Source: Nitrospira sp. MA-1
Lineage (GTDB): Bacteria; Nitrospirota; Nitrospiria; Nitrospirales; UBA8639
Assembly: GCA_032139905.1 (NCBI GenBank)
Contig: JAQJDB010000002.1
Span: 62,001 to 126,000 of the forward strand
Direction of reading: 5' to 3'
Length of the DNA: 64,000 nucleotides
In this document: positions 8,918 through 62,310 of the stretch, one piece after another
Layout: each line of letters starts with the position of its first letter
Position numbering within the stretch: position 1 is the first letter of the stretch
Made by a program: the position numbers and the translations under genes
Notes under the pieces: generated by a model
Database searches by the model: none
What the model saw: the letters and a program-made list of their open reading frames with translations, nothing else
What the model was told of the DNA's origin: nothing

Positions 8918-10429
8918 TTATGAGCTCAGGTGACTTTCCATGACGGAACAGGGAGCCATGACGGCATCCCGCATTCCATGAATAATTTTTTTATCTTTGG
9001 GACAGATCGTTGCCAGGACACCACCCAGATTGGCCTGCCCCTCATTCACGAAATAATACGGAGATATGCGCGCCCGTCCTTCCATCCTGACGACGTCACC
9101 CGAATGGCTGTCATAATATTCAACCACAACCAGTCGCCCTTTGTGAAATGTTTGAAGAATCGAAGGGCTCGTCTCAAATTGTTGCAGAGCATGGGACACG
9201 ACTTCTTTCCATTGGACTTGCGACATATCATGCCCGATCGAGACACCCCGGCTACCCCAAGCCTGGTCGGAAAATCCTGACACTTTAATGACATACTGAC
9301 GCTCTTTTTGGGTGGCTTCTCCCAACCACTGCCAATCCGACACCGCACGATTTCCATGGCGTAAGCCGGGAATCACCGCAGAAGGGGGAAGGGGTCTGGG
9401 ATCCAAAATCCATGTCCCGGGAATGATGGCACGAAGACAGTCAAACGTGTCTGGCTTCAATTCGTGCTCCCAGAATTTTTCCAACATCGGATGATGGAAC
9501 AAGGCTAAGGCCAGTTTTTCCTCCATCCAGGGCTTATATGGCGGGGTGACCACAACCCTGCCTTTTTTGGCACTGTAGACAATCAACTCCCCTTTGGGAA
9601 TATTTTTCAAATCGAACAATTCGTAGAACCGGTAGATCACCGAAAGAGGCTGATCCTGTCCCTCATGGTGAATCAGGAGACCCTCTTCCGTAAAACGAAT
9701 ATCACGGGGATGCCCGCAATAGGCCTCCCAACCTTCCTGCCGGAGTTGCGTCACTACCCATTGCATTTCGGCGCGATAGGCCTCAGCTTCATCCGAGACC
9801 ACAATGGCCACACGAGGAGGCTGCCCGTGCAACATGCCTCGTAACATACGGGAAAACCCTTGAATCAACCCGTCGGCCTGCGGCCACACAGTTCTGCCCT
9901 GCTGGGCATACATCCGGCTGAGACTGCCGGTTAAGCCAATCCCTCCAGGGACAGAATCGAGTTCTGTCAGGGCCATTCCCCCATTGGTGGGAATGAGATC
10001 GGGACGAATGACACCGGGAAGTTGATTTTTGAACCGATTCATCCTGGCAAGGGCCAATAGATCCTCGGGCTTTCCGATATCCAAATATTCATGAACCCAC
10101 GCAGGTTGCATGCCTTTCAGGCTTTCAAGATACAACCGGTTCAACGCCTGATAGAACAACAACAGATGCTGTCCTAAGGCTTCAAAAAACTTGGCTTCCT
10201 CGTGGGAAACCTCAAAAGGGCCACATGCCACTCGCCAATGATCATCCTGTCCGGTCTCAAATAATCCGTCCTTGATCAGCCTGTCCCGATAGAGAGGATA
10301 GGGGCTGTCAGATGTTGACGGACTCAATGGCAGAATGGGGCCGGACTGTTCTACTTGGGAAGAAATAACCGATCCTGGGTTAATCGTGGAAGACGTATGT
10401 GACGGACCAGACACTCTGACGTCCTTCAC
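8918..10429 (-). CDS. predicted ATP-grasp-like protein, function unknown
   Basis: 503 residues, first gene of the leftward group. Conserved-looking patches are TNGGMALTELDSVPGGIGLTG, a middle region with VVVTPPYKPWMEEKLALALF, and a C-terminal part YVIKVSGFSDQAWGSRGVS, GRARISPYYFVNEG and KKIIHGMRDAVMAPC. The Lys-containing strand followed by a Gly-rich GSRGVSIG loop and a late Arg/acidic cluster look like an ATP-grasp carboxylate-amine ligase fold. I do not recognise a named family. The first about 45 residues are low-complexity, so the GTG start at 10429 may be too far upstream. It is separated by 69 bp from the glutaredoxin-like gene and likely heads the operon with kamA and dcd. Confidence 0.6.
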   Translation of the reverse strand: MKDVRVSGPSHTSSTINPGSVISSQVEQSGPILPLSPSTSDSPYPLYRDRLIKDGLFETGQDDHWRVACGPFEVSHEEAKFFEALGQHLLLFYQALNRLYLESLKGMQPAWVHEYLDIGKPEDLLALARMNRFKNQLPGVIRPDLIPTNGGMALTELDSVPGGIGLTGSLSRMYAQQGRTVWPQADGLIQGFSRMLRGMLHGQPPRVAIVVSDEAEAYRAEMQWVVTQLRQEGWEAYCGHPRDIRFTEEGLLIHHEGQDQPLSVIYRFYELFDLKNIPKGELIVYSAKKGRVVVTPPYKPWMEEKLALALFHHPMLEKFWEHELKPDTFDCLRAIIPGTWILDPRPLPPSAVIPGLRHGNRAVSDWQWLGEATQKERQYVIKVSGFSDQAWGSRGVSIGHDMSQVQWKEVVSHALQQFETSPSILQTFHKGRLVVVEYYDSHSGDVVRMEGRARISPYYFVNEGQANLGGVLATICPKDKKIIHGMRDAVMAPCSVMESHLSS

Positions 10430-10606
10430 TCGTCGATCAAAAGAGGTTGGACCTGTACGAAATACTTCAAATCGGGCCTAATATGAAAAGCTTGGACCTT
10501 GGTGACGGCCCTTTTGCTAGAATAGGGAGATCGTAGCACGCTCTCTTGAAACCAGACAAGGCACGCCCTCGAAGGAAATGGCGGGCCAAGTCGCCATGAA
10601 AGTGAT

Positions 10607-11236
10607 GTGCATATGCCTCAGACAATCCCCGTCATTCCTGGTCCACAAGTCGTTCCCTCGGCCGTCTGTTTTCGATGCGACGTCTGCTGTCGTTTCCCTG
10701 AACAGGACAGCTTCCTCAGACCGTACTTTACGGAAGATGAAATTCGACAGGCCGTCACACACGGCATCCTTTCCTCTTCCTTTCCTGATCATCGGGGCAG
10801 TCAGATTGAAGTCGTCCGACATCCCAATGATGAAGGATTTCTCTGTCCCGCCTTTGATCCCATCACACAACACTGTCGCATTTATGAGGTGCGTCCTCTG
10901 GATTGTCAATTATATCCCTTCGCACTTATGTGGAATGCCCAACACGAGAAAGTCGTGCTTGGATGGGATACTCTGTGCCCGTTTCTTCTCGAACAAGCCG
11001 GGGAAGAAAACCCTTTCAGGAAAGCTGACCCACAACCTTCAGCGCTGACCATTCCAAAGGCGATCATGGAACAGGCCCAACGTGTGGCGATCTATTTGGA
11101 ATCGGATAATGTTCTCAATGCCCTAGCCGGTCATCCCCGATTAGTGACTCCGTTTCAACCCGATGTCGTCGTGTTGCACACACTCGATCGCCTGACCGAG
11201 ACTCTTCGATCCTCCACTACACACGATAAGCGTTGA
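10607..11236 (+). CDS. YkgJ-family cysteine-cluster protein
   Basis: 209 residues with two cysteine groups: CFRCDVCCRF near residue 22 and FLCPAFDPITQHCRIY followed by RPLDCQLYPF. This is the zinc- or iron-sulfur-binding pattern of the YkgJ (UPF0153) family, whose biochemical role is largely unknown. It is cytoplasmic with no membrane segment. The start may be GTG at 10607 or ATG at 10613. It is transcribed divergently from the ATP-grasp-like gene, so the 177-bp gap holds both promoters. The next gene (DUF2156) follows 56 bp downstream on the same strand. Confidence 0.85.
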   Translation: MHMPQTIPVIPGPQVVPSAVCFRCDVCCRFPEQDSFLRPYFTEDEIRQAVTHGILSSSFPDHRGSQIEVVRHPNDEGFLCPAFDPITQHCRIYEVRPLDCQLYPFALMWNAQHEKVVLGWDTLCPFLLEQAGEENPFRKADPQPSALTIPKAIMEQAQRVAIYLESDNVLNALAGHPRLVTPFQPDVVVLHTLDRLTETLRSSTTHDKR

Positions 11237-11292
11237 CGGCCACGGTCTCACTCTTTTCTCCCAGACCCTCCATCCCCGTATAACTTTCATCT

Positions 11293-12249
11293 ATGTCCAT
11301 TCACCTCAGTCCCTTGACCCTAAAAGATCAGGTTCATCTGAATCAGGCCATTGCCTCCACATCTATCGGGGGGAAAACCCCCTTGAGTACCTGGTCATTT
11401 CCACCCCATTATATCTGGAAAGACCTGTTTACCTTTTCCTGGACGGACATTGACGGCTGGCTATGCCTCTTCGCGGAATATTCCGATGGGATCTTTATGC
11501 CTCTGCCCCCTGTCGGACCTTGCTCAGACAGTGGATCCTCATCCGGCAGCCCTCTCAAAAATGTGCTAAGTCAGGTTATGGCGTATATGAAAATCCGGAA
11601 TCGTGGATCCCATGTGACGCGAATCGAAAACATTCCCGCTGCTTTAAAAGAAGAGATTCAAGGATGGGGATACACCCTCACACCAAAAGATTCGGATTAC
11701 CTCTATCGCACTGCCGATCTCATTCACCTGAAAGGCAATCCCTACAAATCCCAACGCGCCGCGTGCAATCGATTTATTCGCACACACCGCATTCATATTG
11801 CCCCTTACCAGAGCACCGATCGTGAGGAGTGCCTCGCCCTTTTTCACCGTTGGGTCCATCAAAAGGAAAATATCCCTATTTCCCGACTAGGACCCAACGA
11901 AGATGTGGCTCGCATGATGCTTCGGGATTCCGCTAATGCCCATCGAGTCACCCTCCAGGAACATCGTGAACTCGGTCTTGCCGGGCGAATCGTGTGGGTG
12001 GATGGAGCTGTCAAAGCCTATACGTTCGGGTTCCCACAATCCTCTGAAGTGTTTTGTGTCTTGCTGGAGATAGCAGATCGTTCAGTCTACGGGTTAGCCC
12101 AATATCTTTTCCGTGAATTCTGTCGCGAGTTTCAGGCCTATCCATTGATAAATACGATGGATGATTCAGGTCTGCCGGCTTTAGCAAGAACAAAACTGGC
12201 CTATCATCCCTGCCAATTAGTGCCAAACTACATTGCCCAGCCTTCATGA
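11293..12249 (+). CDS. DUF2156 / lysyl-phosphatidylglycerol synthase C-terminal-like protein
   Basis: 318 residues consistent with the DUF2156 GNAT-fold domain without the membrane part of MprF. Recognisable elements are the start region (LSTWSFPPHYIWKDLF), SYRTADLIHL-like YLYRTADLIHLKGNPY followed by KSQRAACNRFI, and the late NTMDDSGLPALARTKLAYHP. In MprF the homologous domain transfers aminoacyl groups from tRNA to lipid. Soluble versions like this one are mostly uncharacterised, so the acyl donor and acceptor are unknown. It is probably co-transcribed with the YkgJ-type gene. Confidence 0.8.
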   Translation: MSIHLSPLTLKDQVHLNQAIASTSIGGKTPLSTWSFPPHYIWKDLFTFSWTDIDGWLCLFAEYSDGIFMPLPPVGPCSDSGSSSGSPLKNVLSQVMAYMKIRNRGSHVTRIENIPAALKEEIQGWGYTLTPKDSDYLYRTADLIHLKGNPYKSQRAACNRFIRTHRIHIAPYQSTDREECLALFHRWVHQKENIPISRLGPNEDVARMMLRDSANAHRVTLQEHRELGLAGRIVWVDGAVKAYTFGFPQSSEVFCVLLEIADRSVYGLAQYLFREFCREFQAYPLINTMDDSGLPALARTKLAYHPCQLVPNYIAQPS

Positions 12250-53426: not shown

Positions 53427-54680
53427 CTACACCTGGTCAAAGCGCCGATAGGTCTTTTGGGCCAGATTGTAAATCTCAATAAACCCTGCAGACGCATTCT
53501 GGTTGAAACTCGCATCCTTATTAAACGTGGCCAAATTGGCATCAAATAAAGAATAGGGAGATTTCATCGCGACCACATCGGCTTTTCCTTTAAACAGCTT
53601 TACTTTCACCGTTCCCTTCACACGCTGGTTGGCGGAATCCTGGAAAGCATGGATGGCATCCATTGACGGATCAAACCATTTGGCCCCATAACAGGTGTAC
53701 GCCCACTTTTCATCAATGAATTTTTTCAATTCGTTTAAGTCACGGGTATTGACAAGTTTTTCCAGATTAAAATGCGCTTTGATGAGGATTTCCGCTCCAG
53801 GAGCTTCATAGACGCCACGAACCTTCAATCCGACTAAACGGTCCTCCGTTAAATGCACAATGCCTACCCCATGCCTTGCCCCTACAGCATTGGCGCGTTC
53901 AATGACCCGGCAAAGGGAAAGCTCTTCACCATTGATTGAACAAGGGATTCCTTTGTTGAACCCAACTTCGACAATTTCCGGTTCATCCGGTGCCTGTTCC
54001 GGGGGAATGCACACCTGCAGAAATTTTCGTAAATCAGGAATGCAGGCCGGGTCCTCAATATCCCCTCCCTCATTAGTGGAGCCCCACATATTGTCATCAT
54101 GCGAATACAGGTACTCTTTAGTTTGCTTAATGGGGATATCGTGTTGTTTGGCATAATCAATCTGTTCATCCCGGCCCATACTCCATTCACGAACCGGAGC
54201 AATCACTTTCATCGTGGCATCCAATGTCGTGATGTAATTTTCAAAGCGAACCTGGTCATTCCCCTTTCCCGTTGAGCCGTGAGCAATGACTTTGATTCCC
54301 CGCCCCTTGGCCACGCGAACGGCAATTTCCGAAAGCGTTACCCGGGCTAGGGGAGTCGAGAGAGGATATCCCCCCTGGTAATCCGCATTGGCTTTAATGG
54401 CCCGAGACAGCAGTGTTTCAGCAAATTCTTCCCTGGCGTCAATGACCACCGCCTCCTCAGCACCCAGTTTGATCGCCTTCGCTTTGACCGCTTCAAGATC
54501 CTCATGTAATTGGCCTACATCGACTGTCAGTGCCACAATGGAACAGGCATAGGCTTCCTGAATCCATTTAAGCATAATGGAGGTATCCAGTCCTCCCGAG
54601 TACAGTAAAACACACTTATCAAACGTTCCCTTTTTGGCTTCGTGAGATGCAATTTTCTGATACGTGATTTTTGATTCCAT
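53427..54680 (-). CDS. argG: argininosuccinate synthase
   Basis: 417 residues from the ATG at 54680, which has an AGGTGA site; the frame open to 54743 adds an unlikely extension. The ATP pyrophosphatase motif is CVLLYSGGLDTSIMLKWI, followed by VIAHGSTGKGNDQVRFENYI, and YLYSHDDNMWGSTNEGGDIE, with citrulline/aspartate-binding residues. It condenses citrulline and aspartate with ATP in arginine synthesis. It is the short/long-branch bacterial type by its N-terminal about 15-residue extension (MESKITYQKIASHEAKKGTF). No other arginine gene is adjacent. Confidence 0.95.
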   Translation of the reverse strand: MESKITYQKIASHEAKKGTFDKCVLLYSGGLDTSIMLKWIQEAYACSIVALTVDVGQLHEDLEAVKAKAIKLGAEEAVVIDAREEFAETLLSRAIKANADYQGGYPLSTPLARVTLSEIAVRVAKGRGIKVIAHGSTGKGNDQVRFENYITTLDATMKVIAPVREWSMGRDEQIDYAKQHDIPIKQTKEYLYSHDDNMWGSTNEGGDIEDPACIPDLRKFLQVCIPPEQAPDEPEIVEVGFNKGIPCSINGEELSLCRVIERANAVGARHGVGIVHLTEDRLVGLKVRGVYEAPGAEILIKAHFNLEKLVNTRDLNELKKFIDEKWAYTCYGAKWFDPSMDAIHAFQDSANQRVKGTVKVKLFKGKADVVAMKSPYSLFDANLATFNKDASFNQNASAGFIEIYNLAQKTYRRFDQV

Positions 54681-54794
54681 GCCGTGTTCACCTAAAATAA
54701 GGTTGTGTACATTTATTGAGCCCTCACCATGTGTCAACCGCAAGAGCTCGCTTTTTTATTGAATAATAACCCAAGAAGATGAAGGAATTCGATG

Positions 54795-55982
54795 CTAGAC
54801 GGTGACATAGCGATCGACCACGGCGGCACCTACCGCATCACCCCAGACATTCACTGCGGTTCGAAACCGATCGATCAACCAGTCAATGGCCAAGAGGAGT
54901 CCGAGCCCCTCGAGTGGAAGCCCGACAGCTTGAAAGACCACAACCATCGTTACAAGCCCAGCTTCAGGAATCCCTGCAGCGCCAATGGCAGACACGGTCG
55001 CCACCACAAACAGGACAATAAGCGCCCCTCCACTTAATTCAATCCCCCAGGCTTGCGCGATAAACACTGCGGCTACGGCTTCATACAACGCGGATCCATC
55101 CATATTGACCGTCGCACCGACTGGAAGAACAAACCGACTTGATCGACTGCTCACCCCGGCACTTTCGACCCCCTCCATTGTCAGAGGCAAGGTCGCAGAC
55201 GAACTCGCGGTCGCAAACGCACTCGTCAGAGCTGCGCCAAGAGCACGCACATATGTCAAAGGATTCCGTTGACCTCCAAAATGCAAGATGAACCCCAGAA
55301 TAATTCCTGCATGGATGGCCAATCCCAGTAGCACGGTGATTGTGAATAACCCTAAACCAACTAACAGCGCGACAATACCGTCAATTCCACCGGCATTTGC
55401 TAAGCGCCCTGCCACCAAGCCAAACACGCCAATGGGACCGATCCACATCACAAGGTGAACCAGCTTCATGATCGCCCCAAACACCCCTTCGAAAAACTTG
55501 AGCACTAATGTACCATTTTCCCCGACCGTCGTCAGGGCCGCCCCGAATGCCAAAGAAAAGATGACCAATGGCAATAATTCACCCTGCGAAGCTGCCGCGA
55601 ATAAATTCGGGGAAAAGATTCCCTTTATGAGGTCGAGCCATCCGATGTTCACCGCCGCCTCAACTCCGGAAGGGGCCATCGCCGCGGCAATATCGGCTCC
55701 CGCTCCAGGTTTAATGAGACTGACCAGGATCATTCCCAGCCCAATGGCCATACCGGAAGTAATTAAATAGTAGGTGACCGTCACTCCTCCTAATTTTCCC
55801 AACTGGCGAATATCACCCAGGGATCCAACGCCCTGGATTATCGAAGCCACAATCAAGGGCACCACCAGCATCCGCAACATCCGGATCCAGAGCTCACCCA
55901 GAATTTCCACATGGCGAGCGACTTCTGGAGCCAGGGCTCCGAGCACCCCACCAGCCACCGCACCGGACACCATGAGCCACAC
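54795..55982 (-). CDS. dicarboxylate/amino acid:cation symporter (DAACS family)
   Basis: 395 residues, about eight helices and two hairpins. Landmarks are RMLRMLVVPLIVASIIQGVG, ATASSSATLPLTMEGVESAG (serine-rich motif), PVGATVNMDGSALYEAVAAV (NMDGT-like) and the C-terminal GIPEAGLVTMVVVFQAVGLP, with DWLIDRFRTAVNVWGDAVGA. The GTG start at 55982 is likely, but in-frame codons upstream may extend it. It imports glutamate, aspartate, or C4-dicarboxylates with Na+ or H+. It is followed by argG on the same strand, 52 bp away at the nearest reading. Confidence 0.9.
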   Translation of the reverse strand: MWLMVSGAVAGGVLGALAPEVARHVEILGELWIRMLRMLVVPLIVASIIQGVGSLGDIRQLGKLGGVTVTYYLITSGMAIGLGMILVSLIKPGAGADIAAAMAPSGVEAAVNIGWLDLIKGIFSPNLFAAASQGELLPLVIFSLAFGAALTTVGENGTLVLKFFEGVFGAIMKLVHLVMWIGPIGVFGLVAGRLANAGGIDGIVALLVGLGLFTITVLLGLAIHAGIILGFILHFGGQRNPLTYVRALGAALTSAFATASSSATLPLTMEGVESAGVSSRSSRFVLPVGATVNMDGSALYEAVAAVFIAQAWGIELSGGALIVLFVVATVSAIGAAGIPEAGLVTMVVVFQAVGLPLEGLGLLLAIDWLIDRFRTAVNVWGDAVGAAVVDRYVTV

Positions 55983-56064
55983 GAGTGGACCATGGCCATT
56001 TCCACGATCTACAGATAAGGGTTGTTTGGTAATGGGACAAACCTGATTTTAGGGAAGGGAAACG

Positions 56065-56337
56065 CTACTTGGTCTTTTTGGCTAATTTCTGCCCAGCTAC
56101 CCCGACACCCAGAGTAGTGGACTTTGATTGCCTCACAATGTCATAAAAACTATCGAGGGAAATAATGGGCTCAAGCTTCTGATGCAAGTAAATGAGTGCC
56201 CTGGATGGTTCCACCCCAATCTGCCAACCAAGATCCTGGTCAGGCTTCAGTTCTTGAACATAGGCAATGGCCGATGCACTGATAAAGGTCTTTCGTTCCC
56301 CTGTGAGGGTTGATTGCCTGACCTGTACAAAAAACAT
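56065..56337 (-). CDS. 90-aa protein, last gene of the GNAT/ATP-grasp operon
   Basis: 90 residues from the ATG at 56337, preceded by AAGGGG at good spacing; the frame open to 56352 adds five residues. The sequence FFVQVRQSTLTGERKTFISA, SAIAYVQELKPDQDLGWQIG and VEPSRALIYLHQKLEPIISL is mixed alpha/beta, ending in a Lys-rich tail (AGQKLAKKTK). I recognise no family. It starts 34 bp after the 664-aa gene, so it is probably co-transcribed. It could be a partner or small regulatory subunit. Confidence 0.65.
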   Translation of the reverse strand: MFFVQVRQSTLTGERKTFISASAIAYVQELKPDQDLGWQIGVEPSRALIYLHQKLEPIISLDSFYDIVRQSKSTTLGVGVAGQKLAKKTK

Positions 56338-56370
56338 GCTCACCCCTTTCAATCGTAACCGTTCAAAGGT

Positions 56371-58365
56371 CTACAACCAGGTGAAGGCCTGCCCCCACCC
56401 TTCCTTGGCATGTGCGGTCACCTCAGCGATGATTTCGGCCGGAACGGCTTTTGGGTCACCCACCTCCATCTGATTATAATGAAACGCATAAATATGAGCG
56501 GCAAAATGCTCGAAGGTTAATGACGATTCTCCCGGAATTTCCCAATGACCGACCACAGACGGTTCAACCCCTCTCCCCCAATTTTGACGGCCCTCATTAT
56601 TCGGATTGAAGAAATAGACGCGAACCTTCCCTTCTTCATCCTCGGCAACACGCTGGATGGAGACGGCGTGATAACCTAAAAAGACCCCATGCACATTGGT
56701 AATAAGGAGACCAACTGGATTCGGATACACCAAATCATGCCCCCCGTCGTATAAAGGATGATGGGTGGCATAAAATAACCGTAAAAATTCCTCATACCCG
56801 GAGACCGTCTGGTTAACCATAGTAATTGAAGCCAGACTGGTCGCCACCCACCGACCATACAAAGCCGGGTTCACCCATTTGTGTGGATCTTCACCCCGCA
56901 ACGCCGCACGCCTCATCTTTTCATCGTAGATACGATCCAGATGCGGTACCAGAATGCGTGATACCGGATCGAGCTTCAAATCAAATTTTCCTTCCGCGAC
57001 TCCTCCCCCGATTTCTCCGGATAAGATCCTCTGCCCCTCAAAAAGAAATTCAACAGTGTCGTCCCGAGCCGCGCTGGTCAATAATTGGAGCAAATACCCA
57101 GGATCATGGAGACTCCAGAGACTCAGGGCACGGGCGCCCTGACAGGTCGGGTTGTTTCCCTGGCCGACTCCCAACGGCTGCCCTAACATGGCAATCGCCC
57201 CACCCACAATGGCAGCATTGGCCGTAATCCCAGTCCCGCGGGGCAGATGTTTCTTGGTGACTTGTTGAGCAGTAGAACACAAATCAAGATTAAGCAATTT
57301 AGTCAGACCATCAGCGACCTCTGGTCGTGCAAGAAGCATCCGCTCTAACATCTGTTGAAACCCATAGATGATCCAACTCGTAGCAGGATGAATGGTCAGG
57401 CGCATTAACTCAAAGACCTTTTCCCGATACTGTTCCATGTGGGCCTGGCCTACCTCGGTCAAATCCAAGGCAATCGCCAGGATTCCCGTTTCGTCATTCT
57501 TGAGGACATGCTGGAGGAACGCGACATGGTATTCGCTGGATAGACCGGTCAGCGTCAACAATTTCCCCACCACCTTGGCCTCATTCTCAATCTCATGTGT
57601 GGTGGCTTTGGCCAAAAGATTGCGATAATTCGTGGGAGAGCCCGCTTTCTGGGCCAGTGGTGTGGGAGCGCCCGTGGCCTTGAGGTACCGGTCCAGTCTA
57701 GCAGCCAGTTTGGGGTCTGGATCCCCCTGAATGTTTTTGGCTTGCTCAATCATTTTTAATGTGAGGCTTACATCAATAGGACGCTGAGCCACTCGCGCAT
57801 CAATATCATCAAGAACATGTTCCAGCAACCCTTCCGAGGAAACCTCTTGCTCAATCATGGCTAATATTCTGCGGGCTCGTGCATAGACCTTCGGACGCAG
57901 ACGGGACTCCTCGGTCTCACTGCCGTACAGCAAATCAAGATTGAGCCCCATAACCGTCTGTAAAAATGCTTGAGCAAGTTGCGCAGAAAATTTCGGGTGT
58001 TGCGAGTCGCCGGCTGCAATGGATAAAACCCGAAGCTCGCTCAGCATTTCTAATGACGAATACTGCCCTTCGGCACGGAGCCCCCCACCCACCAACTCGG
58101 CTAGAAGCCGGTCAGGATGTTCCCAGGGTCCGGCATGAAAGACCCCTGCGGAATCAAAACGATGGGCCTGTCCTCTTACGATTTGCAGACCTTCGTCGCT
58201 TTCAAACAAATCCGTGGCACGACGAATAACCTCTGGCTGATACTTGGCCTTGGCAAATGGTTCCGCCTGCTCCAAAGCCTCAAGGGCCTGAAGTAACGCT
58301 TGTTCTTGACGGGCAGTGGCGTCCATTAATTCAGGCTGAAAAGAGCCTTGGGGGGAATCACTCAT
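56371..58365 (-). CDS. 664-aa protein with papain-like Cys-His-Asn pattern, family unknown
   Basis: 664 residues from the ATG at 58365 with GAGGAG upstream; the longer frame to 58494 would only overlap the ATP-grasp gene. The N-terminal about 370 residues are helical and unfamiliar. The second part has a papain-type order: Gln402, Cys408 (GQGNNPTCQGARALSLW; Gln six residues before Cys as in papain), His566 (VFLGYHAVSIQRVAEDEEGK) and Asn587 (VRVYFFNPNNEG). The His-strand-Asn spacing and the GYHAV...FNP context fit cysteine-protease or transglutaminase-like folds. So a hydrolase or amide-forming transferase is predicted, not proven. It sits between the ATP-grasp gene (start overlaps its stop by 8 bp) and the 90-aa gene. 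Confidence 0.7.
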   Translation of the reverse strand: MSDSPQGSFQPELMDATARQEQALLQALEALEQAEPFAKAKYQPEVIRRATDLFESDEGLQIVRGQAHRFDSAGVFHAGPWEHPDRLLAELVGGGLRAEGQYSSLEMLSELRVLSIAAGDSQHPKFSAQLAQAFLQTVMGLNLDLLYGSETEESRLRPKVYARARRILAMIEQEVSSEGLLEHVLDDIDARVAQRPIDVSLTLKMIEQAKNIQGDPDPKLAARLDRYLKATGAPTPLAQKAGSPTNYRNLLAKATTHEIENEAKVVGKLLTLTGLSSEYHVAFLQHVLKNDETGILAIALDLTEVGQAHMEQYREKVFELMRLTIHPATSWIIYGFQQMLERMLLARPEVADGLTKLLNLDLCSTAQQVTKKHLPRGTGITANAAIVGGAIAMLGQPLGVGQGNNPTCQGARALSLWSLHDPGYLLQLLTSAARDDTVEFLFEGQRILSGEIGGGVAEGKFDLKLDPVSRILVPHLDRIYDEKMRRAALRGEDPHKWVNPALYGRWVATSLASITMVNQTVSGYEEFLRLFYATHHPLYDGGHDLVYPNPVGLLITNVHGVFLGYHAVSIQRVAEDEEGKVRVYFFNPNNEGRQNWGRGVEPSVVGHWEIPGESSLTFEHFAAHIYAFHYNQMEVGDPKAVPAEIIAEVTAHAKEGWGQAFTWL

Positions 58366-59605
58366 AGAAATCATACTCCTCATAACGTTGGACGAGCTCA
58401 CGCAGGGCTTCCGGATCTTCTCCCGCCAGAAAGACGGTGCCATAATGATTACCGAAACCCACACGCTCTGCCACTTTGGCGGTGACAGGTTCAAACATGG
58501 TATGCCGGTCCATATAGGGATGGGCTTCCAATTCTTTTGGAAATTGTAGTTGATGGACGCTGGCTTTTCGAGGATACACCATTAAATTAGCTGCAAAAAC
58601 TTTATGGTCTTTTTCTTTTGGGAAAAACCGGTCCAATTCTGTTTTGGAGGTATTGGGATCAGAGCATAACAATAAAGCTGCATATGGATTAAAGCCATGG
58701 GCACGCTGAATGAGTTCAAAAATATGGCCGCCGGGTACACGGGCCGCCACCTCCCCAAAATGCAACTCCCCCTCCGGATCCAAAAAATATTCCGGATGAA
58801 TCATACCATTAACGATGCCAAATGCCTTCATAAGTTTTTCAATCGCCTTACGAATCTTTGTCCGGTGTTTGCTGAGCTTCGGCGTTTCCGGCACGATCTG
58901 GGAATAGCCCAGATGCACGTACTCGGTAATATTCATAAATTCGATTTTTCCCTTATGGATAAAGGCTTCGACCGAAAATTCCTGACCGGCCAAATGGCTC
59001 TCGGCCAGACAAGGAAAGGCATCGTCGGGAAGGGAGATGATGTCTTGTCGACTTCGAACAAACACATGGCCCACACTCCCAGCCGCGGAGAGAGGTTTCA
59101 GATGAACCGGTTCCGGCGCTTCCTCTTGCAAGCGAAGTCTAGCCTCATTGATGTCATCAAAAAACGCGAGTGCTTCTTCCCGTGAGCGAATTTCTTCAAA
59201 AACCCCGACACGAATGCCGTTCATTTGCGCATTGCGCTTCATCATGGCCTTGTCGCGGAACAGCAGAGCCCGTTGAAAGGCACGTGGATCTTTAAGCAGA
59301 CGGGTGTTGAGGGACCCGGCCCATTCTACCGTTTCTTCATACAGCGGAACAGCATGACTCACCCCCCGCTCCACCAACTTTTCATAGAGTCGGTCGGAAT
59401 TCTGATTGTGCACATAAAAGTCCCAGGTCACCACATCCACCCCATCCTCTTTTAATGCGATATCAAAACCCTCCGGTACCACCGCGACGAAGGGGATGTT
59501 GTGTTCCTTTGCTGCTTCCATCGTTTCCAAGCTATAGCCGAGCAGAGCCACTGGGGCCCTCTTTCCTATCCGGGCTTTCTTGACCACTGGGGCTTTCTTT
59601 TCCAT
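58358..59605 (-). CDS. ATP-grasp carboxylate-amine ligase-like protein
   Basis: 415 residues from the ATG at 59605, which has an AAGGAGA site six bases upstream. A reading to 59671 is open but unlikely. ATP-grasp landmarks are a KPLSAAGSVGHVFV Gly-loop, LAESHLAGQEFSVEAFIHKG, and HPEYFLDPEGELHFGEVAAR then VPGGHIFELI, with acidic metal ligands and an Arg. Before it, a Rossmann-like N-terminal part (VALLGYSLETMEAAKEHNIP) is typical of BacD/BL00235-type amino acid ligases. It probably joins a carboxylate to an amine through an acyl-phosphate. Co-directional with the GNAT gene 118 bp upstream and coupled to the 664-aa gene. Confidence 0.83.
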   Translation of the reverse strand: MEKKAPVVKKARIGKRAPVALLGYSLETMEAAKEHNIPFVAVVPEGFDIALKEDGVDVVTWDFYVHNQNSDRLYEKLVERGVSHAVPLYEETVEWAGSLNTRLLKDPRAFQRALLFRDKAMMKRNAQMNGIRVGVFEEIRSREEALAFFDDINEARLRLQEEAPEPVHLKPLSAAGSVGHVFVRSRQDIISLPDDAFPCLAESHLAGQEFSVEAFIHKGKIEFMNITEYVHLGYSQIVPETPKLSKHRTKIRKAIEKLMKAFGIVNGMIHPEYFLDPEGELHFGEVAARVPGGHIFELIQRAHGFNPYAALLLCSDPNTSKTELDRFFPKEKDHKVFAANLMVYPRKASVHQLQFPKELEAHPYMDRHTMFEPVTAKVAERVGFGNHYGTVFLAGEDPEALRELVQRYEEYDFYE

Positions 59606-59722
59606 GTCAAATCTCCTTAAGTGGGGGACATATCGAATAAACTCCTCCATGCTGTCGCTGCTAGCAGACAAATGGAGAACCCATCAGCAATGATAATTCG
59701 CTCGTTTGGGAGGAAGGACGTG

Positions 59723-60289
59723 TTAGAACAGATATTGGTACAGCTCAAAACCCTCTTCATGGTAGGGCTTCAACCAACCGCCGCCCCACTCTAAGACTTC
59801 GTCACGAGTGGACGCAATACATTCAAAACCGAAACGGCGATAGGAGCGCGTGGCCCAAAAGGCCTTGGGATGGGCAATTAACACCATGCCACGTTTTCCC
59901 TCGCGCCGGGCCACATCGCGGACGTAATTGAGTAATTGAGGCCCAAACCCTTTGCCGGTCTGGTGATCATAGACATAGATGTACCCAATATAAAACATGT
60001 CTCCGACTGACTGGGTAGATACGATGCCGACCGGCGCATTCCCTTCTCGCCCGATATAAAACTGCCGCCGAGCAAACTCCCGTTCCCCCCAGGATTCATC
60101 CACCTCATGCTGTGCCATATCCTTCTCATGAAGAAAGGGTCGATACCAGTCAGCAGAAGATCTGAGGATATTGGCAGCAATAACCATCTCATGACGTTTG
60201 GCCGGCTGAATATCCAGCCGCCGATGAATAATTCTCCTACCGGTTCTTCGATGTAGACGTTCCCCTATTTCCGTTTGATTCTGCATCAT
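59723..60289 (-). CDS. GNAT-family N-acetyltransferase
   Basis: 188 residues. The GNAT core has FYIGREGNAPVGIVSTQSVG, then MFYIGYIYVYDHQTGKGFGP with the acetyl-CoA-binding loop (QTGKGFG, Q/R-x-x-G-x-G/A type), VLIAHPKAFWATRSYRRFGF, which is motif B, and ECIASTRDEVLEWGGGW. The substrate is unknown. It is the first gene of the operon, start ATG with AAAGGAT upstream. Upstream is the 554-bp palindromic region shared with the divergent sigma-54 activator. Confidence 0.85.
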   Translation of the reverse strand: MMQNQTEIGERLHRRTGRRIIHRRLDIQPAKRHEMVIAANILRSSADWYRPFLHEKDMAQHEVDESWGEREFARRQFYIGREGNAPVGIVSTQSVGDMFYIGYIYVYDHQTGKGFGPQLLNYVRDVARREGKRGMVLIAHPKAFWATRSYRRFGFECIASTRDEVLEWGGGWLKPYHEEGFELYQYLF

Positions 60290-60503: not shown

Positions 60504-60825
60504 GTATGAGGGCGCATGGGAAATTACGGCACACCGTATTCACATTGCCTCAACTCATGGTAATCAAGCGCAACCAGTCAAATGGTCTTGGCTCGATCAC
60601 CGAATTGAATTAAAACCAGTACACCTCACAGAGACATTCAAACCATTCATTTGTAAGGTATGTCTTATGGTCATCCCCAAAATTCATCTATCCATACCTC
60701 TTAATACCTACTAACACTTCGCAAGACCTGTTCCAGCAGTTAAATGGTTGATATTTGAAAATTTATTGAATTTTGGGACTGCAATGTCCCTACAATTGGG
60801 ACACACTTGACTCATTTGCATATTA

Positions 60826-60843
60826 TGAGACAACATTGTCTCA
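60826..60843. promoter_or_regulatory. perfect palindrome abutting the sigma-54 activator start
   Basis: TGAGACAACATTGTCTCA, eight-base arms with a two-base centre. The next base begins the ATG of the activator at 60844, leaving no room for a Shine-Dalgarno site. It may be an operator that blocks transcription or translation initiation, or the true start is the in-frame ATG at 60871. The GGGAC-tgcaat-GTCCC inverted repeat lies 36 bp upstream. Confidence 0.65.
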
Positions 60844-62310
60844 ATGCCGGATTCAACTTCTATAGTCATTATGGGTTCCCCGGAGCTGGAACAGGCTTTG
60901 AATCGTGAAGGCCTTGGGGTTGTACGGTTGGAAACCCCGGAAAATGTGAAGACCCTGTCGATTGGTTCACAGACCCGCCTGGTTATACTCGACGGTCAAC
61001 ATCTTGGAGACTCCCGGATGTTTGAGATGATGAAGACCATACAAGAACACAGACCCTATCTTGATGTGCTGGTATTTAAGCCGGGCGCCGATGCCGGCTA
61101 TGTTCATTCTGTCTTGAAAAACGGCGCAGCGGATGTGATTTACGAGGATTCACATGAAAAACTTCATCAAGCCATAGAGGCCATTCAGAACAATCAAAAG
61201 TTTTCTCCCGATACCCCGGATTTGCGTGATACACGCAAAAGGGTGGGAAGCTTTGAAGGCATTCTCAGCCGTAACGGAGCCATGTGGGATATTTTTGAAA
61301 CCATTACCCGCACCGCGAGTTCGGACGCCACAGTGTTAATTGTGGGGGAAACCGGAACGGGTAAAGATTTACTGGCTCGGGCGATTCACCGTCAGTCCGG
61401 GCGAACCGGACGATTTGTGGCCGTCAATTGCAGCACGATCAGTCCAGAAATTATTGAATCGGAATTGTTCGGCCATGAACGCGGGGCTTTCACCGGAGCC
61501 CATCAACAAAAGCAGGGATTATTTCGGTATGCCGATGGCGGCACCATCCTTCTGGATGAGATTGGGGATATGCCGGTTCAAACTCAACTCAGTCTTTTAC
61601 GGGTATTGCAGGAACAGACGGTGAGGCCGGTTGGGTCTCATCATGAAGTACCCATTGATGCGCGTGTCATTGCCGCGACCAACGCCTCGTTAGCCAACGC
61701 CGTTCAAACCGGCTCCTTTCGCGAAGATCTCTTCTACCGGCTTGACGTCATTCGCTTAGAAGTGCCGCCTTTACGAGAGCGACCGGAGGATATCCTCTAT
61801 ATGTTCGGGCATTTTCTGAAACGCGTCTGTGCCGACTATGGAATGGACTGTCCGGAATTGCACCAATCCTTCATGGATCTGCTCTTAGAGCAGACCTGGC
61901 CAGGCAATGTCCGACAATTGGAAAACCTCACGCAACGTCTGGTCTTAAAAGGCCACAACCGTGAATTGACCGGGGAAGATCTGGCTGAGGTGTTGTATTC
62001 ACAGGATATTCCTGGGTCTTCTTCAGCTCCGACCGCTCTTGAAACAGAAAGCGTGAACCAACCCCTCCAAAGCCAGGGTGATCACACTCCGTCCCTCAAT
62101 CCGGCCCTCACGCTGGCGGCCTACCTTGAGCCACACCTCGCCACCCTGGAGAAAGAGTATTTGGAAACCGTGCTGTCCAAAAATAGCGGTCGCATTGCCG
62201 AGTCAGCCAATCAGGCCGGCATGAGTCGCCGAACGCTCCTGCGCAAGCTCAATGCCTACCACATCGACAAACAAAATTTTCGAAATAAGAATTCAGAATT
62301 AAAAGATTGA
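60844..62310 (+). CDS. sigma-54-dependent transcriptional activator (NtrC-type)
   Basis: 488 residues. The N-terminal about 115 residues look like a receiver (SIVIMGSPELEQALNREGLG, LVILDGQHLGDSRMFEMMKT, VLKNGAADVIYEDSHEKLHQ), with a degenerate acidic pocket. The AAA+ domain has Walker A GETGTGKD at 168-175, the sigma-54-contacting GAFTGA at 214-219, and Walker B TILLDEIGDMP. The C-terminal Fis HTH is YLETVLSKNSGRIAESANQA, GMSRRTLLRKL. It is divergent from the GNAT/ATP-grasp operon; whether it activates that operon is untested. The ATG at 60844 abuts a palindrome. Confidence 0.93.
   Translation: MPDSTSIVIMGSPELEQALNREGLGVVRLETPENVKTLSIGSQTRLVILDGQHLGDSRMFEMMKTIQEHRPYLDVLVFKPGADAGYVHSVLKNGAADVIYEDSHEKLHQAIEAIQNNQKFSPDTPDLRDTRKRVGSFEGILSRNGAMWDIFETITRTASSDATVLIVGETGTGKDLLARAIHRQSGRTGRFVAVNCSTISPEIIESELFGHERGAFTGAHQQKQGLFRYADGGTILLDEIGDMPVQTQLSLLRVLQEQTVRPVGSHHEVPIDARVIAATNASLANAVQTGSFREDLFYRLDVIRLEVPPLRERPEDILYMFGHFLKRVCADYGMDCPELHQSFMDLLLEQTWPGNVRQLENLTQRLVLKGHNRELTGEDLAEVLYSQDIPGSSSAPTALETESVNQPLQSQGDHTPSLNPALTLAAYLEPHLATLEKEYLETVLSKNSGRIAESANQAGMSRRTLLRKLNAYHIDKQNFRNKNSELKD

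Follow-up and report, generated by a model that had tools for sequence, protein, structure and literature searches.

An ATP-grasp ligase and a predicted papain-fold protein encoded as genomic partners in Nitrospira sp. MA-1 and other bacteria: a candidate undescribed amide pathway

In a 64,000-nucleotide stretch of contig JAQJDB010000002.1 from Nitrospira sp. MA-1 (hereafter the window, whose positions serve as coordinates throughout), a first-pass annotation had picked out four neighboring genes as a candidate undescribed peptide or amide system. Two of them, both on the minus strand, encode an ATP-grasp carboxylate-amine ligase of 415 amino acids (58358..59605) and a 664-residue protein in which an alpha-solenoid precedes a putative papain-fold domain (56371..58365). 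These two are almost certainly obligate genomic partners across several phyla, and they form the conserved unit, which in other lineages is joined by a racemase or a glutaminyl cyclase gene or stands by itself. The pair probably performs small-molecule amide chemistry, and our preferred reading, which we rate as just short of probable, is that it belongs to an undescribed pathway for an amide with some osmotic or storage role. No description joining these genes was found in the open-access collection searched, from which many journals are missing, and to that extent the idea of an undescribed system is upheld, with an ATP-grasp enzyme that forms amides and a papain-fold partner at its center.

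Relatives of the 664-residue protein were collected from 131 stretches of bacterial genomes, 80 of which were kept. They occur in Nitrospirota, Peribacillus, Bacteriovoracales, Balneolia, Gemmatimonadetes, many Bacteroidota, Halomonas, Marinobacter and others. The ATP-grasp gene adjoins the 664-residue gene in nearly all of the loci that reach far enough, with 44-55% identity outside Nitrospirota. Both genes are intact in 64 loci, and in 63 of these they share a strand; the ATP-grasp gene comes first in 54 and the order is swapped in the rest, including Gammaproteobacteria, where linkage persists despite the swap. The two gene trees correlate (r 0.93), a value to which the species history they have in common contributes. 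Among 121 genomes of one Halomonas family, the two protein families are both present in the same 73 and both missing from the other 48. In a Bacteroidota order (194 genomes), the two core genes are found in the same three genomes, as is a racemase present in exactly these three. In one of the three (G266) each gene is on a contig of its own, with several kilobases of flanking sequence, and they are therefore kept together without being neighbors. Five Marinobacter-type loci have no ATP-grasp gene in their flanks, yet a whole-genome search located one elsewhere in each genome; these same genomes hold further 664-residue copies, which brings the total to three or four per genome. Although common descent inflates such counts, it is striking that no genome had just one of the genes. 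As a separate observation, paralogs of the 664-residue protein may be tandem or dispersed (L024 at 10168-11937, L077, L086, and Marinobacter and Halomonas genomes), with up to four per genome.

The four genes as a unit, in contrast, do not hold. The gene for a GNAT-family acetyltransferase is found beside the pair in 10 of 41 related genomes and that for a 90-residue protein in 9 of 41, in both cases within a single genus. Thus the four-gene block, seen only in the window's Nitrospirota genus, is ruled out as the conserved unit: the quartet does not co-occur elsewhere, whereas the pair clearly does. Within that genus, each of the four genes is present in five high-quality genomes. The open reading frames are not products of chance, because close relatives conserve most of the genes and their order, and because the core pair has clear homologs in other phyla. 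Most of the quartet genes are 70-99% identical in these relatives, with the order unchanged. One genome (G016, contigs C461 and C508, probably the same strain as L015 and L020) contains two divergent copies of the whole block, whose 664-residue proteins are 89% and 78% identical to that of the window. In another close relative (G003:C255:514-783), a TAG lies inside the match to the 90-residue gene, which may mean that this gene is dispensable or that the contig is erroneous.

The 664-residue protein matches nothing in Pfam or NCBIfam, and no credible sequence match was obtained in the PDB, nor did a profile built on the papain domain yield one. Across 54 members of its family there is no meaningful Pfam match, and hence no described Pfam peptidase family; by these searches it is a new family that Pfam does not cover. 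AlphaFold2 was run on an alignment of 59 of its members, paralogs included. The full-length model (mean predicted local distance difference test score, pLDDT, 89.9) is all-helical to about residue 360 and mixed thereafter, with the alpha-solenoid spanning about residues 14-360 and the papain-fold domain about 367-637; modeled alone, the latter reaches a pLDDT of 87.1. While the full-length model gave no Foldseek match at E 0.001, the isolated domain did match calpain cores, the best being that of calpain-9 (E 8.9e-5, probability 0.99), with probabilities of 0.99-1.00 across these matches. VIA-align also aligned it with calpain (Z 8.6, 208 residues, 4.2 Å), and the lower rows were nearly all papain-fold enzymes. 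This comparison rests on a predicted model, and the template modeling scores are only about 0.3-0.4. All 59 sequences, paralogs too, share Gln402, Cys408, His566, and Asn587. Read from the sequence, these residues follow the papain order of an oxyanion glutamine and then the catalytic cysteine, histidine, and asparagine, and the spacing of six between Gln402 and Cys408 is that of papain itself (Gln19 and Cys25). A papain fold with an intact Cys-His-Asn site, as the first-pass annotation had suspected, is therefore well supported by the predicted fold and the conserved residues. The domain could be a peptidase, an amidase or an acyltransferase.

The partner enzyme passes the cut-off of Pfam ATP-grasp_4 (PF13535; 33.2 bits against 27). 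Its nearest solved relative is 4wd3, named “L-amino acid ligase” (413 residues, profile E 1.5e-10, about 250 residues aligned), which we take to be RizA. Other solved relatives are 4dim, named phosphoribosylglycinamide synthetase, and 3vot, the L-amino acid ligase BL00235. RizA is very specific for dipeptides with N-terminal arginine (Arg-X; PMC9321006). An alignment of 39 ATP-grasp sequences has many invariant residues, and most members match PRK07206 and PRK02186 weakly. The family forms a distinct subgroup.

Genes joined to the pair in other lineages hint at a substrate. In Bacteroidota and Balneolia, a gene of the alanine racemase family directly follows the pair (46 of 80 loci). It matches TIGR00492 with 282 bits (cut-off 168), and the catalytic Lys39, an arginine, and Tyr265 of this fold-type III family are kept in 45 of 45 sequences. 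At the position of Tyr354, however, there is asparagine in 44 and alanine in one; the tyrosine is retained in the further alr-type genes that these genomes carry. Tyr354 is the inner-layer tyrosine that defines alanine specificity, and threonine, alanine or asparagine takes its place in lysine, broad-specificity, and serine racemases (PMC3485190). A second alr-type gene was found in each of five genomes searched, and three of them also have an alr domain in a frame of 805-841 residues, as in MurF-Alr fusions. Because Tyr354 is replaced and the hosts have further alr-type genes, the partner is an extra racemase, probably with a substrate other than alanine. Two side observations concern these loci. 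In the second stand-alone alr-type gene of L134-L137 and L139, Tyr354 is kept but positions 129, 137, and 313 (B. stearothermophilus numbering) are occupied by Glu, Thr, and Asn, and its product, too, may not be an ordinary alanine racemase. Proteins of about 255-280 residues with one hydrophobic stretch are encoded after the racemase in L036 (6947-7774), L037 (11149-11991), L046 (11089-11907), and L048 (11146-11913); some of their genes overlap the racemase end, and the L037 protein has no NCBIfam match.

Arginine genes recur as well. In L143 (genome G182), ATP-grasp, 664-residue protein, racemase, argB, argD, argC, argJ, and MscS genes run in one direction with short gaps, argBDCJ being the ornithine-making set. 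The L036/L037/L046 group and L074 have the same set next to the pair, and in Cyclobacterium an arg cluster lies beside the pair on the opposite strand. A link to ornithine or arginine is proposed because of these arrangements and of argG in the Nitrospirota loci; we regard such a substrate as possible, though doubtful. In the Gemmatimonadota locus L045, a glutamine cyclotransferase (glutaminyl cyclase) gene stands ahead of the pair.

The osmotic side of our reading comes from mechanosensitive channels of the MscS family and from the hosts. Genes of this family occur close to the core genes or to the racemase in the Halomonas group (MscK-type), Marinobacter, Imperialibacter, Marivirga, L143, and L142, at 168 bp in the Marinobacter locus L094 and about 40 bp behind the racemase in Imperialibacter. 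One host genome has three MscS genes in 2.0 Mb, which gives about 0.02 expected per locus; in a rough post-hoc count over some 35-40 independent lineages, the expectation near the pair is below one, against five or six seen. Many hosts, judged by organism name alone, are halophilic, alkaliphilic or marine. These neighbors and hosts therefore lend some indirect support to an osmolyte, and an osmotic role of the product is possible, if somewhat less than an even prospect. Of the acetylated dipeptide osmolyte first proposed, the osmolyte is a reasonable guess for these reasons, but acetylation would be local at most, the GNAT gene being confined to one genus.

A pathway can be proposed on this basis. 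The ATP-grasp enzyme would use ATP to activate the carboxylate of an amino acid, ornithine- or arginine-related to judge by the neighboring genes, as an acyl phosphate and would join it to an amine. Acting on the same amide, the papain-fold enzyme would form an acyl-enzyme at Cys408, from which the acyl group would pass either to a second amine or to water, the latter once the product is no longer needed. The product may then be capped or altered by lineage, through acetylation by the GNAT protein in Nitrospirota, a D-residue supplied by the racemase in Bacteroidota, or pyroglutamate in one Gemmatimonadota, and it would probably accumulate as a compatible solute or as an osmotic or nitrogen store. 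The strict co-occurrence suggests that both enzymes are needed for function and therefore favors a biosynthetic step over optional recycling. This argument is tempered by the operons for N-acetylglutaminylglutamine amide (NAGGN), which also retain an aminopeptidase (PMC8070244). In its boldest form, the proposal is a new compatible-solute or storage pathway of halophilic and marine bacteria in several phyla, in which an amino acid of the ornithine/arginine family, D-configured in Bacteroidota, becomes part of a capped amide through the ATP-grasp enzyme and a new family of papain-fold acyltransferases, which would form amide bonds instead of cleaving them; we consider this full version quite unlikely.

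Several points weigh against the preferred reading. The window's ATP-grasp enzyme scores far below every curated NCBIfam cut-off for a named ligase (DdaF, 21.6 bits against 840; PRK07206, 56.1 against 302). Its substrate and the product of the pair are suggested by gene context and homology. The MscS and arg associations are post-hoc observations, set against a rough background at most, and those in Halomonas probably go back to a single event; the window itself has no MscS gene, and the leaning of the hosts toward saline habitats is judged from organism names. Racemase, argBDCJ, GNAT, and glutaminyl cyclase genes are each restricted to some lineages, and most of the examined Halomonas-family loci carry the pair only. 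The argBDCJ genes of L143 may be the ordinary ornithine supply of the cell: neither a second arginine set nor argG was found in the 2.0 Mb (61%) of that genome. Finally, alpha-solenoids are commoner in proteins that bind other proteins.

The alternative that survives best, unlikely but to be taken seriously, is a dipeptide or signal-like amide without any osmotic role, serving signaling, antagonism or another purpose in the manner of bacilysin, rhizocticin or dapdiamide, and matured or degraded by the papain-fold enzyme. RizA, BacD-type enzymes, and dapdiamide synthases, all relatives of the ATP-grasp enzyme, serve such products, and the papain fold is nearest to peptidases. Yet no recurring transporter, resistance or non-ribosomal synthesis genes are seen around the pair, whose correlated gene trees and retention in most of the Halomonas family are unlike patchy antibiotic clusters, and the MscS neighbors point to osmotic stress. 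Still less likely is a protein modification cycle comparable to tubulin tyrosine ligase and its carboxypeptidases, in which the ATP-grasp enzyme would add an amino acid to the end of a protein, to be removed or exchanged by the solenoid-papain enzyme. The solenoid has the usual protein-binding shape, a ligase and a cysteine enzyme are strict partners, and the several paralogs per genome could serve several targets. Against this, the closest relatives of the ATP-grasp enzyme are amino-acid ligases that act on small molecules, the loci showed no third conserved gene that could encode a protein target, and the adjoining metabolic genes (racemase, argBDCJ, glutaminyl cyclase) suggest free amino acids. 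A remote variant of the NAGGN osmolyte system with unfused GNAT and ATP-grasp enzymes is very improbable: the window does have the same ingredients, down to a peptidase-like enzyme, whose counterpart in NAGGN operons is a glutamyl aminopeptidase (PMC8070244), but the block has no AsnO-like amidotransferase, its third enzyme is papain-fold, and the GNAT gene is not in the block outside one genus. An anti-phage or other conflict system is scarcely credible, and a viral or defense origin was rejected, for patchy presence within the window's genus is set against no PADLOC match at E 0.1, no relative found in viral contigs, a single plasmid relative on a 1.8-Mb Halomonas replicon, and presence in most of the Halomonas family.

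In the window, the four open reading frames are real and lie where they had been placed, all on the minus strand. Transcription order runs from 60289 to 56065, with the GNAT protein (188 amino acids, 59723..60289; Pfam Acetyltransf_1, 39.8 bits against a cut-off of 20.7), the ATP-grasp enzyme, the 664-residue protein, and the 90-residue protein (56065..56337), which has no Pfam or NCBIfam match and is known from its open reading frame and from synteny within one genus. The first and last are lineage-specific accessory genes; both family assignments made earlier, GNAT and ATP-grasp, pass their Pfam cut-offs. The tight spacing ascribed to the genes applies to part of the row: the core genes overlap by 8 bp and the gap to the 90-residue gene is 33 bp (34 had been given), but 117 bp separate the GNAT and ATP-grasp genes. 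Ribosome-binding sites (AAGGAG-, GAGGAG-, and GGGGTG-like) precede the genes, as described earlier. The row does not stop at the four genes to which the operon had been limited. Downstream on the same strand are a dicarboxylate/glutamate-type symporter of the DctA/GltP family (54795..55982; E 5.6e-68 to DctA and 2.6e-61 to GltP, below the curated cut-offs) and the argininosuccinate synthase gene argG (53427..54689, with an earlier-start frame beginning at 54743; PRK00509, 484 bits against 334; TIGR00032, 453 bits against 268.2, both NCBIfam), in synteny in every relative whose contig is long enough. The symporter probably continues the transcription unit of the quartet, and argG is possibly a member or neighbor of it. 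On the plus strand, a divergent gene for an NtrC-like, sigma-54-type activator (60844..62310; NtrC-family matches) is a candidate regulator of the unit. Its homologs (cluster c7) are divergent and upstream of the GNAT gene in the related loci that reach that far, and related Nitrospirota with long enough contigs keep the full row of activator, GNAT, ATP-grasp, 664-residue, 90-residue, symporter, and argG genes, the 90-residue gene being matched only partly in one locus (L016). Promoter and terminator scans gave nothing above chance, and inspection by eye of the upstream alignment found no sigma-54 promoter for the operon.

Just before the NtrC-type gene (60775-60843) are perfect or near-perfect palindromes, TGAGACAACATTGTCTCA at 60826-60843 and GGGACTGCAATGTCCC at 60775-60790. 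Eight related loci largely preserve the TGAGACA...TGTCTCA element. These palindromes are possibly operators for autoregulation. Elsewhere, the Marinobacter loci L109, L107, and L112 place the pair between a malate:quinone oxidoreductase gene and an acetolactate-synthase-type (PRK08322) gene; the two were dropped as pathway genes since they do not recur in the examined Halomonas-family loci. An FtsJ-type methyltransferase gene and a phospholipase A1 gene beside the pair in the Halomonas family are taken as local synteny.

A family without a Pfam entry is thus tied to an ATP-grasp ligase in the well-studied Halomonas and Marinobacter, and a conserved metabolite may still be undiscovered there. 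Several of the hosts can be cultured, which opens the pathway to direct genetic and metabolomic testing. Should the papain-fold enzyme prove to be an acyltransferase, a fold best known from peptidases would gain a biosynthetic branch.

Compared with known systems, the pair resembles other combinations of an ATP-grasp enzyme with a peptidase-like one, yet by profile score it falls short of the cut-offs of named ligases and peptidase families. With the L-amino acid ligases (RizA, BL00235, BacD/YwfE, and DdaF) it shares the ATP-grasp domain and the alignment to 4wd3, which fits amide bond formation; it differs in lying below all curated NCBIfam cut-offs and in its strict partnership with a papain-fold protein. 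The NAGGN operon asnO-ngg-aminopeptidase likewise unites ATP-grasp and GNAT chemistry with a peptidase-like gene and a possible osmotic role (PMC8070244). The pathway is nevertheless a different one, as had been claimed: Ngg is a GNAT domain fused to ATP-grasp, whereas the window's genes are separate, no AsnO-type amidotransferase is encoded among the window genes 53427-60289, the third enzyme is papain-fold, and the GNAT gene is not in the block across most of the family. The clan CA peptidases (calpains, staphopains, and bleomycin hydrolases) have the fold predicted for residues 367-637, the Gln-Cys-His-Asn set, and the papain spacing; differences are the 12-16% identity, the lack of a Pfam family match, and the unusual alpha-solenoid ahead of the domain. 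ATP-grasp peptide systems that include transglutaminase-like proteins, the Anbu type among them, also combine an ATP-grasp enzyme with a Cys-His enzyme for which peptide synthesis or cleavage is predicted; in the neighborhoods examined, where not every neighbor was scanned, no gene for Anbu, alpha-E or a circularly permuted ATP-grasp enzyme was recognized. By enzyme types alone, as generally described, the pair can be likened to glutathionylspermidine synthetase/amidase, in which an ATP-grasp synthetase and a papain-type cysteine amidase of the CHAP kind act on the same amide within one fused protein, while here the two enzymes are encoded by separate genes.

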